Below are positions 9,177-37,899 of a DNA stretch of 37,899 bases, piece after piece. This DNA comes from an uncultured Sphingobacterium sp. Lineage in GTDB: Bacteria; Bacteroidota; Bacteroidia; Sphingobacteriales; Sphingobacteriaceae. Under the pieces are notes generated by a model, which saw only the letters and a list, made by a program, of their open reading frames with translations, was not told where the DNA came from and ran no database searches. Both the position numbers and the translations under genes were made by a program. The stretch covers positions 1 through 37,899 of the forward strand of contig CANRHE010000009.1 in assembly GCA_947630335.1 (NCBI GenBank), written 5' to 3'. Within the stretch, counting starts at the first letter, position 1, and each line of letters starts with the position of its first letter.

Positions 9177-9206
9177 ATATTGTGAATATATAGTAATTTG
9201 AAATAT

Positions 9207-9575
9207 ATGAATTTAGAAAAATTAACGATACAAGAAGAGGAGGCCATGTTATCCATTTGGCAATTGAATGGAGGTTTTATCAAGGAAATATTGGATAATC
9301 TGACTGGAGATATGGTTCCTTACACCACCTTAGCTTCTACGGTAAAGAATTTGGAAAAGAAAGGCTATGTGAAAGGTGTTAAATATGCTAATGCGAAGCG
9401 TTATGAACCGATCATTTCGCAGCAAGAATATAAAGCTAGGTTCATGAATTCCTTTGTAGGCGATTACTTTAAAAACTCTTACAAAGAGATGGTTTCTTTT
9501 TTCGTGAAAGAGGATAAGTTATCTTCAGAAGAGTTGAATGAGATATTGGATATGATCAAAAACAATAAATCCTAA
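9207..9575 (+). CDS. BlaI/MecI/CopY family transcriptional regulator
   Basis: LTIQEEEAMLSIWQLNGGFIKEILDNLTGDMVPYTTLASTVKNLEKKGYVKGVKYANAKRYEPIISQQEYKARFM is a BlaI-type winged helix; followed at once by an M56 gene. Confidence 0.92.
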   Translation: MNLEKLTIQEEEAMLSIWQLNGGFIKEILDNLTGDMVPYTTLASTVKNLEKKGYVKGVKYANAKRYEPIISQQEYKARFMNSFVGDYFKNSYKEMVSFFVKEDKLSSEELNEILDMIKNNKS

Positions 9576-9580
9576 TTAAG

Positions 9581-11578
9581 ATGGAAAACCTTCTAAGCTA
9601 TATTATACAAGTCAATTTGTTGTTGACGCTGATTTTTCTAGGATATCATTTACTGTTGAAGGGTTTGACATTTTATGTACTGAATCGAATTTACTTTGTT
9701 GTAGGTGCTCTATATGCATTTATATTTCCTTTGATAGATTTGAAGTCTTTTTTTGTAAAGCAGACTATAGTCTCGATTCCTGTTGTTTGGGATTATGTTC
9801 CTTTAGATAATGTCGAGCACCTATCTAAGACATATTCTTTGTATGATATATTGTTAGTTGGTATTACTATTGGTGGCTTGATTATCATTTGTAAATTAGT
9901 ATTGCAATTGTTCAGTTTGTTACGGATACATTTTTATTCGAAAGAGGCGCAGTGGCAGTCTTATTGGTTTCGTAATGTGGTCTTTCCGATCGTCCCTTTT
10001 TCTTTTTTTAACAAAATATATTTACACCAGATTCAACATCAGGACGTTGAGTTGAATGATATTTTTGAGCATGAAATGGTCCATGTAAAAGGCCGTCATA
10101 CCTGGGATATTCTCTTGTTCGAAATATTATTGATAGGCTGTTGGTATAATCCCTTCGTATGGCTAATGCGTAGGGCTGTGAATCAAAATTTAGAGTTCTT
10201 GACTGATCAACAAGTATTAAATAATGGTGTTGATCGACAAAGCTATCAATATTCGTTGCTAAATGTCACAAAGCATGGGACTGCAGTTGGTATTAGCAAT
10301 CAGTTTAATTTTAAAACCCTAAAAAAACGGATAATGATGATGAACAAAAAACGATCTTCTCGATTAGCGTTAAGCAAATATGTCTTTCTGCTTCCAATAT
10401 TGCTGTTGGCGGGAGCAACGTTTACACTTAGTCAAGCAGAGAGTAGGATTGAACATGTAGTCGAGTTGGTAAAAGAAACACCTACCTTTGTCAAGCCAAT
10501 TAGTATGTTTGATAGTACACAGATTAATTCAAAAGAATATCCATTGTTAGCTCTGGATTTTGACAAGGAAAATGTTGCAAAACTCAATAATTATTATGAA
10601 ATCGATGGTAAGTTAGTTTCGCTGGATGATTTCTTGGCTTTCCCAAGGGCAGAGATTTCAGGTGTAGATATCTATAAAGATAAAGTTGAAATTCAGAGAA
10701 AAATTGGAAAACCTAACGCAGACGCATTATTTGTGATGACTTCAAAGCAACGAGCAGGTTTTTCGGATAAATCAGTAATTAAGACTAATCAGCAAGAAGA
10801 AGATTTTAAACGTCTAAAAAGTAAAAATGAAGTTGATAATAAAAAGACATATTTGTACGATTATGATGGAAATATATTGCCAAAAGCTGATTTTTTTGCT
10901 ATTGCCGACGATAATCTAAAGAATTTAACTTTAATATCTAATAAGTCAATTCTGTCGGGGAAATACGGTAAACATGTAGATGATATAGGTAATTATGATG
11001 GTGTGATTAGAGCATACTCTGTTGAAGGAGAGAGAAAGAATCAAGAGCGAATAATGAATGCATTGTATGTACTAGATGGTGTGGAGAAAGACAAAAGTTT
11101 TGATTTGAACTCACTGAATCCAAATGATATTAAATCTGTAACCGTATTGAAGGATAGTGCTGTGGTTGATAGATATGGTGATAAAGGAAAAAATGGAGTC
11201 ATTATTATCGAAACAAAATCGCATTCTGTATCTAGACTTTCTAAAGAAATGTCAGCCGATCAAGAAATTACAGATGTTGCTTATAAAGGCAGAAGTGAAA
11301 CTGTGGCTATCCTTTCTAAGCCTGATGTTCAAAAGATGGATGGCGTTTTCATTCCAAAACAACGGAAATCGGTTGAAAAAATTGTTTTGAGAGCGAATCC
11401 TAGTAGTGAACCTCCACTTTTTGTTGTTGATGGAATTGAGAAGGATGAAAATTTTAATTTGAAGTCACTCAATCCAAATGATATTGAATCTATAACTGTA
11501 TTGAAGGATAAAGCTTCTGATTCTAAATATGGTGATAAAGGGAAAAATGGTGTTATAATTATTGACTTAAAGAAGTAG
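9581..11578 (+). CDS. BlaR1-like M56 family metallopeptidase with C-terminal TonB-dependent-receptor plug-like modules
   Basis: N-terminal TMs, IFEHEMVHVKGRHTWD (HExxH), YNPFVWLMRRAVNQNLEFLTDQQVL; C-terminal repeats LYVLDGVEKD..LNPNDIKSVTVLKDSAVVDRYGDKGKNGVIIIETK and LFVVDGIEKD..LNPNDIESITVLKDKASDSKYGDKGKNGVIIIDLKK. Confidence 0.92.
   Translation: MENLLSYIIQVNLLLTLIFLGYHLLLKGLTFYVLNRIYFVVGALYAFIFPLIDLKSFFVKQTIVSIPVVWDYVPLDNVEHLSKTYSLYDILLVGITIGGLIIICKLVLQLFSLLRIHFYSKEAQWQSYWFRNVVFPIVPFSFFNKIYLHQIQHQDVELNDIFEHEMVHVKGRHTWDILLFEILLIGCWYNPFVWLMRRAVNQNLEFLTDQQVLNNGVDRQSYQYSLLNVTKHGTAVGISNQFNFKTLKKRIMMMNKKRSSRLALSKYVFLLPILLLAGATFTLSQAESRIEHVVELVKETPTFVKPISMFDSTQINSKEYPLLALDFDKENVAKLNNYYEIDGKLVSLDDFLAFPRAEISGVDIYKDKVEIQRKIGKPNADALFVMTSKQRAGFSDKSVIKTNQQEEDFKRLKSKNEVDNKKTYLYDYDGNILPKADFFAIADDNLKNLTLISNKSILSGKYGKHVDDIGNYDGVIRAYSVEGERKNQERIMNALYVLDGVEKDKSFDLNSLNPNDIKSVTVLKDSAVVDRYGDKGKNGVIIIETKSHSVSRLSKEMSADQEITDVAYKGRSETVAILSKPDVQKMDGVFIPKQRKSVEKIVLRANPSSEPPLFVVDGIEKDENFNLKSLNPNDIESITVLKDKASDSKYGDKGKNGVIIIDLKK
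11063..11575 (+). repeat. in-gene duplication of a plug-like module (11063-11218 and 11417-11575)
   Basis: Clear nucleotide and protein similarity, e.g. tcactgaatccaaatgatattaaatctgtaaccgtattgaaggata versus tcactcaatccaaatgatattgaatctataactgtattgaaggata; offset 354 bp. Confidence 0.9.
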
Positions 11579-35736: not shown

Positions 35737-36519
35737 TTAAGATTTAAATTCAATCATGATCATTTCGTCTTGATAGAGACCAAGAAGTTGACTAGCATTT
35801 CCTTTGTTGATAGCAATCTCGAGGTAGTTGCTAATTCCGAACAAACATAACTTTTCGCCCTCAGCTACTTCATTGTAATGCCAGCTCATTCTATCAATAG
35901 TTTCGTTGCGCTTGAATTGTAGTACAAAATTTCTGCCTTTTTGTACTTCATTGAATAGTTCTTTACTAATATTACTAATGACATTTCCGAAAGAGTCAAT
36001 ATAGGCCACATGTCCTTTTATAGAATTGGATTCTACGATAGGTGATAACGTTACCTTTTGAAGAGATGATTCAATGGAGGATCCGAGCTCTGTGATAGGT
36101 AAGTCGTTCGCAATATGACAGGCAGCTTTAACGAGAATGTCAGCAAGAGGGAAATGCAAAAAACGAAGGTCTTGCATGATTTCAATCTCTACCAATTGAT
36201 CAGGTTTGTTTTCGCCCAATATTATACTGAAAATGCCGTTGTCTGCACCTACAAAATAATGTCCATTGTACTGCATAGCAATATATCTACACCCTTCCTG
36301 AAAAACAGTGTCTATACCGATAAGGTGAACGGTGTTTTTGGGGAAGTAATGGTATGCATTCTGAATAATGAAAGCGGCGTGTTGGATATTGAAAGAAGGT
36401 ATTTCGTGGGATATGTCTATGAGACGAACTTCGGGAAGCAAAGTCAATATGCTTCCTTTTAATGCAGCCTGGTAGAAGTCGCGGTGTCCTAAATCAGTTG
36501 TTAATGTTATTATCCCCAT
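35737..36519 (-). CDS. SAM hydroxide adenosyltransferase family protein (formerly DUF62)
   Basis: IITLTTDLGHRDFYQAALKGSILTLLPEVRLIDISHEIPSFNIQHAAFII; VHLIGIDTVFQEGCRYIAMQYNGHYFVGADNGIFSIIL; GHVAYIDSFGNVISNIS. Confidence 0.93.
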   Translation of the reverse strand: MGIITLTTDLGHRDFYQAALKGSILTLLPEVRLIDISHEIPSFNIQHAAFIIQNAYHYFPKNTVHLIGIDTVFQEGCRYIAMQYNGHYFVGADNGIFSIILGENKPDQLVEIEIMQDLRFLHFPLADILVKAACHIANDLPITELGSSIESSLQKVTLSPIVESNSIKGHVAYIDSFGNVISNISKELFNEVQKGRNFVLQFKRNETIDRMSWHYNEVAEGEKLCLFGISNYLEIAINKGNASQLLGLYQDEMIMIEFKS

Positions 36520-36859
36520 ACTTTCAACTCATTATGTACAATGAGCTTTTAATGTTATTAAAAATAATTTTTTTTAAAAGACTACAAAGTTAGTAAAACT
36601 GTTAGTTTTAATCTTTCTTTACCGTCAAAATAGTAAATATTTTTTAGAATTAATATTCCGTCTGTCGGAGGACGAAGGAATCCACTTAAATTATCTCGTT
36701 TTATTCCACTAAATCTTACTATAACCTCGCTTTATTTATCAAATAAATATATAGGATGGACTATGCCTATCCATTTGATTGCTAAATTAGTTTCATAAAG
36801 AGATGTTCGTTCCTTATAAGTATTAAGTGCTACTTAAAGGAGGGTTTAATAAGGGGTTG

Positions 36860-36954
36860 ATTCGGACTTCATACGGGTTTAACTCGGATTCATCCGAATG
36901 AAGTCCGAATGAAGTCCGTATGAAGTCCGAATGAAGTCCGAGCGATGTCCGTAC
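36860..36954. repeat. 11-bp tandem repeat array (AATGAAGTCCG units) with inverted half, potential hairpin
   Basis: 36897-36951: aatgaagtccg|aatgaagtccg|tatgaagtccg|aatgaagtccg|agcgatgtccg; left half cggacttcata|cgggtttaact|cggattcat in reverse orientation; 17-bp perfect stem 36860-36876 / 36916-36932. Confidence 0.92.
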
Positions 36955-37225
36955 AAAATGTGAGTTATTGTAGAGGATGTAGGAAGCATTTGGTAATGAA
37001 TTCACGATACACGAAAGCTAATGAGGGAGAAAGGTTGTTTATTTTACTTATTAATAGATAATCATTTCTATAGAAATTAGTTGATAATAGATTTTGTAGC
37101 TTTTAAAGTGCTTTATCTAAAGTGTAGCACAAAATAAATGCATTTTTTGTTTAGTGGTTACAGAAATTTTTCAAAAAATCTTCCTTATATTTATTGTGAT
37201 AATTTTACCATTAAGACTAAGAATA

Positions 37226-37899
37226 TTGAGTGAGTTAGTAATTAACCTAGATGGAGTCAACCTAGTGACACTATGGGGGGCTGGCAATGAGAATTTTGAA
37301 TTTGTAAAAGAACAATACCCTAAACTACGTCTCGTTGCTCGAGGTAATGAGTTAAAGGTTTTGGGTGAGGAGTCAGAGCAGAGTGCATTTGAGCGTGTTT
37401 TCGCAACTGTCATAGATCATGTAAATAGGTATAACAAGCTGGAAGCTTTAGAGTTGGAGGAGTTGTTTGGAGCAACTTCATCGGTGGCTACTGTATCGGA
37501 TGATAAAGAGAATATAAAGCCCATTATGAAGGGTGAACCTATTGTGTATGGTCCAAATGGATTGGTAGTGCGTGCGCGTACGCCTAATCAGCTCAAGATG
37601 GTGAATAGTATTCTAAAGAATGATATTTTGTTTGCGATTGGACCAGCTGGTACGGGTAAAACGTATACTGCAGTGGCCTTAGCCGTTCGTGCATTGCGTA
37701 ATAAAGAAATTAAGAGAATTATTTTGACTAGGCCCGCTGTTGAAGCAGGCGAGAATTTAGGTTTTCTACCTGGTGATTTGAAAGAAAAGGTAGATCCTTA
37801 TTTGCGTCCGCTGTATGACGCTTTGGATGATATGATTCCAGCCGAAAAGCTCAAAGGGTATTTGGAGAATAGAACTATTGAAGTAGCTCCTTTGGCATT
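37226..37899 (+). CDS. PhoH family protein (N-terminal part, truncated by window end)
   Basis: Open frame to the window end: LSELVINLDGVNLVTLWGAGNENFEFVKEQYPKLRLVARGNELKVLGEESEQ...QLKMVNSILKNDILFAIGPAGTGKTYTAVALAVRALRNKEIKRIILTRPAVEAGENLGFLPGDLKEKVDPYLRPLYDALDDMIP. Probable TTG start. Absent from the ORF track. Confidence 0.93.
   Translation, partial: MSELVINLDGVNLVTLWGAGNENFEFVKEQYPKLRLVARGNELKVLGEESEQSAFERVFATVIDHVNRYNKLEALELEELFGATSSVATVSDDKENIKPIMKGEPIVYGPNGLVVRARTPNQLKMVNSILKNDILFAIGPAGTGKTYTAVALAVRALRNKEIKRIILTRPAVEAGENLGFLPGDLKEKVDPYLRPLYDALDDMIPAEKLKGYLENRTIEVAPLA

Follow-up and report, generated by a model that had tools for sequence, protein, structure and literature searches.

Dyad-symmetric 11-bp arrays of Sphingobacterium as candidate chromosome-spaced nucleoprotein sites

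The repeat array upstream of phoH in the window (the whole stretch analysed, 37,899 nucleotides of contig CANRHE010000009.1 from an uncultured Sphingobacterium sp.) is a member of a family which is restricted to the genus Sphingobacterium. The family element is dyad-symmetric, is built of 11-bp units with the skeleton CCSWAYNARNY and measures in total ~130-170 bp; a chromosome carries some 20 to 36 of them. Its members are held apart along the chromosome and occupy positions common to different species. From these sequence features we suggest, giving the reading an even chance of being right, that the array belongs to a set of chromosome-spaced nucleoprotein sites with putative binding of a candidate factor. 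Literature searches did not find a description of the family, which is apparently previously undescribed.

Results

Units with an 11-nt period run along the + strand of the window at 36894-36959 and recur in reverse complement at 36844-36887. Such an arrangement had been reported in the preliminary description, and the 17-bp perfect stem named there is present as an exact pair. The features are the following.

36811..36970, no strand: full element, approximate, ~7 unit steps per side of the dyad, with limits inferred from family conservation and weakly visible in the window copy itself
36844..36887, - strand: left half, four 11-bp units in opposite orientation, with CGG at 36885, 36874 and 36863 and the outermost unit degenerate
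36860..36876, + strand: left arm of the 17-bp perfect inverted pair
36888..36893, no strand: 6-bp spacer ATTCAT between facing CGG and CCG, with the dyad at 36890.5 (assigned from unit symmetry)
36894..36959, + strand: right half, six 11-bp units CCGAATGAAGT, CCGAATGAAGT, CCGTATGAAGT, CCGAATGAAGT, CCGAGCGATGT and CCGTACAAAAT (unit inspection and pattern match)
36916..36932, + strand: right arm of the 17-bp perfect inverted pair
35737..36519, - strand: left neighbour, SAM hydroxide adenosyltransferase (SAM_HAT) gene, for context
37154..37897, + strand: right neighbour, PhoH family ATPase ORF, which runs off the window, for context

The array is placed, as first described, in the intergenic gap upstream of phoH, between two diverging genes, with SAM_HAT ending at 36519 (-) and the phoH ORF starting at 37154 (+). 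Some details of that description had to be revised: the array has a single dyad, degenerate units reach past the reported ends (36860 and 36954), and the first bases of the units are A, A, T, A instead of a strict alternation of aat and tat. A two-unit pattern gave four matches at <=3 mismatches in the window against 0.00 in dinucleotide shuffles, and the match of profile R1 covers 36857-36945. Elsewhere in the window (9198-11578) a small regulator-like ORF is followed by a larger membrane ORF, by eye a BlaI/BlaR1-type pair.

The dispersed repeat family that had been suggested was found genus-wide. Instead of a single genome-wide copy, ~21 arrays, each on its own contig, are present in the MAG that contains the window (2.63 Mb, 227 contigs, 80.9% complete). 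About nine of these 21 lie within ~420 bp of a contig end (C30, C44, C63, C75, C96, C123, C152, C201 and C209), which would follow from breaks of the assembly at repeats. Long arrays number 10-36 per genome. Profile R1 matched in 40 of 61 Sphingobacterium genomes and a generic three-unit pattern in 45 of the 61, with some counts of the latter near the reversed-pattern control. An exact pattern searched over GTDB returned 18 stretches, all of them from Sphingobacterium, and in a class-wide sample outside the genus six of 292 genomes had a match, one each, which is about the control level. In approximately a quarter of the genus sample, several complete genomes included, the profile and generic pattern searches did not detect an array, indicating that the function is not universal within the genus.

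Every copy follows a common plan, in which outward-facing units surround a central spacer of 6-8 bp. The unit consensus is symmetric across ~6-7 units on either side, and conservation peaks centrally and declines over ~5-7 units per side of the dyad. Copies vary by whole units, as seen in an 11-nt gap in A2 and in orthologues that differ in unit number. In several groups the C at unit position 1 and the A at position 7 belong to the most constant bases, and position 6 belongs to the least constant ones; C1 and A7 hold while positions 3 and 6 vary. Two sequence types can be distinguished, CCGAATGAAGT-like (type 1) and CCCTATTAACC-like (type 2), with the skeleton and the dyad phase common to both and the type-2 consensus CCCTATTAACC at the same dyad offset as type 1. 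Five groups agree in how far the units are offset from the dyad; this agreement is due in part to the way in which dyads were assigned, by facing G/C blocks, and common descent may also lie behind it. Because skeleton and dyad phase are shared and the types avoid each other on the chromosome (see below), the two look functionally equivalent. The 11-bp repeats of one site, L201 (G067, near 3199410), appear to represent a third type (ACGGATATTGGACG...). In the relatives, arrays have an outer motif, AAGTTGA / TACCAGTTAA, which is conserved at a distance of ~six units to either side of the dyad.

In genome G061 the 36 sites are separated by gaps of 41-499 kb, while random placement gives nine gaps below 40 kb. 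Pooling of seven complete genomes, four of them with rounded lengths and three (G066, G071 and G081) with partial site sets, type-1 sites not having been compiled there, yielded three gaps <40 kb against 27.0 +/- 4.2 simulated (0 of 20,000 simulations). G016 and G026 have many sites in common and are not independent; without G016 and G071 there is one such gap against 21.5 expected. Avoidance extends across the types, only one of 30 type-2 sites lying <40 kb from a type-1 site, compared with 6.8 at random (P = 0.003). Profile R2, built from G061 only, returned the same 36 G061 sites with no further strong site and re-found the window copy (E = 1.7e-7). Profile R3, for which four type-2 sites of G067 were used, revealed type-2 sites in six more complete genomes, several of which fall inside large gaps between type-1 sites. 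One gap of 14.5 kb occurs in G016, and site-free stretches persist, up to 2.3 Mb in G071. Since such long empty stretches remain, the spacing is best called repulsion, not full regularity. The two types have too little common sequence for homologous recombination, and their avoidance would thus argue against recombination-driven loss as the cause of the spacing. The G061 sites are distributed over both arms, with dnaA at position 412. A Ter-restricted or origin-gradient distribution was rejected as inconsistent between G061 and G067, and replichore orientation showed no pattern by eye.

Array positions are common to different species, and the core aligns better there than the adjoining intergenic DNA. 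In 36 pairs of shared loci, which are not independent, core identity is 0.82 with 2.6% gaps, compared with 0.70 and 16% gaps in the right flank and 0.76 and 7% gaps in the left flank. A stricter local-identity filter leaves core and flank identity similar (0.836 vs 0.864), the difference being mostly gaps and poorly alignable flank. Selection on the GC/AT pattern alone was considered and rejected, GC-/AT-preserving substitutions amounting to 28% in the core and 23% in the flanks (P = 0.07). Between the MAG and G061 five pairs have a common neighbourhood; in the phoH case the element lies beyond the opposite side of the SAM_HAT gene, and precise positional conservation between these two genomes is therefore not claimed there. 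Some MAG copies have 170-390 bp in common (200 bp at 84% in L016/L018, 390 bp at 89% in L016/L028), which implies that a copying mechanism exists.

The gaps that harbour arrays are divergent, co-directional and convergent in 23, 23 and 10 cases, respectively, for the sites of the MAG and its relatives, and in 9, 20 and 5 cases for G061. A consistent orientation of the arrays to genes was absent in both the MAG and G061. No shared function was seen among the flanking genes, which are unrelated housekeeping genes by the names that we read from their sequences. Short tandem microsatellites, AGACATAAGACATAAG and GATATGAGATATGAG among them, directly adjoin many G061 arrays (L147, L149, L152, L155, L158, L159, L162, L168, L175 and L178), and beside L148, L154, L160, L169, L174, L177 and L180 of the same genome stands a further dispersed motif, TGGTTGGTGGGGACACCAACCA, in full, in part or as a variant. 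A block similar to CTTATCCTGAATTATCCTTACAGCATTCGGATAGTTAAACGG recurs in G067 in the flanks of many arrays (L184, L193, L200, L204, L205, L206 and L207).

Discussion

Repeats scattered over bacterial genomes are commonly interpreted as mobile or neutral. In the present family, mutual spacing on the 40-kb scale across two types would be a purely genomic signature of selection on site position. The helical phasing, the dyad, the base-specific skeleton, the spacing and the interchangeable types fit a cooperative protein assembly serving a chromosomal neighbourhood, and a multi-site protein-binding array is the best supported of the readings offered in the preliminary description. We propose that the 11-bp units would all lie on one face of the helix, where a DNA-binding protein may assemble cooperatively on them, the two oppositely oriented stretches meeting at the dyad; alternatively, the DNA may wrap around the protein in 11-bp register. 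Right-handed wrapping would favour a sequence period of ~11 bp. Positive wrapping provides a comparison for such a period (PMC12393610).

In the proposed cooperative assembly each site would serve ~50-200 kb, and a nearby second site, redundant or harmful, would not be kept, giving rise to the spacing. The output would most likely be nucleoid or topological organisation (domain, loop, segregation, supercoil management), and not control of the neighbouring genes. The factor that we favour would be a lineage-specific oligomerising DNA-binding (nucleoid) protein reading the skeleton. More tentatively, the arrays might represent a new chromosome-organising system of Sphingobacterium, in which a dedicated protein acts on mirror-symmetric 11-bp arrays 40-200 kb apart and the spacing is kept while the site sequence drifts between interchangeable types; we regard this fuller version as possible, if somewhat doubtful. 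The question of chromosome domains in Bacteroidota can now be put to the test in S. multivorum and other culturable species; such work could turn up a new nucleoid protein or gyrase stations fixed along the whole chromosome.

The main alternative factor, and the best named candidate, is DNA gyrase, as its motif is ~130 bp, symmetric and 10.75-bp periodic. The arrays would be strong gyrase sites, with predicted binding and cleavage and ~65 bp per side wrapped on the GyrA C-terminal domains, and would act as fixed supercoiling stations, a possibility that we consider unlikely. The E. coli motif covers 130 bp, with the cleavage site as its centre of symmetry and a 10.75-bp GC periodicity in each of its two arms (PMC6379681), and other gyrases show a 10-11 bp GC periodicity too (PMC12324340). 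The present elements are alike in length, dyad and period, and their two types fill one spaced set. In addition, replication of Mu drops steeply with an increase in prophage length from 37 to 59 kb (PMC10052514), suggesting that a strong gyrase site may act over tens of kb. Against gyrase, the GC phase of the arrays is off that of the strong gyrase site of phage Mu (Mu SGS) by ~3 bp (4.7-5.2 vs 7.9 at period 10.75), the Mu SGS being the single reference site, as the pBR322 site gave no usable amplitude. The 10.75-bp GC periodicity is significant in all copies of the own, rel and type-2 groups, but few single type-1 copies show it in G061 (18%) and G067 (11%). Moreover, C1 and A7 are conserved beyond the needs of indirect readout, convergent gaps are not enriched for arrays, and gyrase is universal whereas the arrays are not even genus-wide.

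We consider it improbable that the arrays are non-autonomous MITE-like elements, spaced by the long-range target immunity of the transposase that mobilises them, as in Tn7-like systems. The copies are dispersed and intergenic, some with longer common stretches (L016/L018 and L016/L028), target immunity could in principle space them, and the tandem-repeat MITE BrickBuilt of P. gingivalis has a similar copy number (PMC4596501). However, orthologous positions persist across species despite diverging flanks, with the core aligning better, and conservation peaks in the centre of the element instead of at its ends. Neither a transposase gene nor a target-site duplication was noticed, filled and empty sites not having been compared directly, and avoidance between two differing types would require one transposase for both.

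A structured RNA or hairpin acting in transcripts of the flanking genes, which had also been suggested, is very improbable, and we reject it. Folding of the window array reaches z = -6.2 relative to shuffles, paired cells make up 76.5% vs 74.4 +/- 0.5 in column shuffles, and covariation is 0.134 vs 0.106, with slid controls at most 0.061. That covariation is small, however, and the - strand folds equally well (z = -6.5), as any DNA palindrome would. On the + strand G-U pairs are not in excess over A-C relative to shuffles, Rfam covariance models gave no match to the window, the orientation to genes is inconsistent, and the 40-kb-scale spacing would be unexplained. Finally, neutral local slippage from a chance inverted repeat fits the whole-unit differences, and unit number may still change in this way, as had been suggested, but as the origin of the whole family it is refuted by the genus-wide dispersal, the fixed dyad, the base-specific constraint and the chromosome-scale repulsion, and we give it practically no weight.

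Among known systems, matS/MatP and ParB-type sites are dispersed short chromosome-organising sites, the 13-bp matS occurring in the Ter region only. The arrays, in contrast, are spread round the whole chromosome, the G061 sites being found on both arms. In parC of plasmid R1, the ParR centromere, clusters of 11-bp repeats are bound in helical register; parC is one plasmid locus by its par operon, whereas the arrays form tens of chromosomal sites, each with a single dyad. REPs are single hairpins present in hundreds of copies and often clustered. Like the arrays, REP / BIME-2 elements are intergenic palindromic repeats, and gyrase binds a subset of them (PMC6379681). The arrays differ in being long, helically phased and mutually spaced, with 10-36 repelling copies per genome instead of short, clustered, high-copy hairpins. 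The BrickBuilt MITE of Porphyromonas gingivalis, also of the Bacteroidota, has tandem units in ~19 intergenic copies, as here, but its units are of 23 nt, all point the same way and come with a leader, a tail and IS5-like TIRs (PMC4596501). The arrays have 11-nt units inverted about a central dyad, and neither leader nor tail was recognised in them. With the Mu SGS and with the gyrase motif of E. coli, whose arms have a 10.75-bp periodicity (PMC6379681), the arrays, at ~6-7 units per side, share a symmetric pattern of ~130 bp. The arrays differ from them in their base-specific repeated units, centre-peaked conservation, GC phase offset of ~3 bp from the Mu SGS, chromosome-scale repulsion and restriction to one genus.
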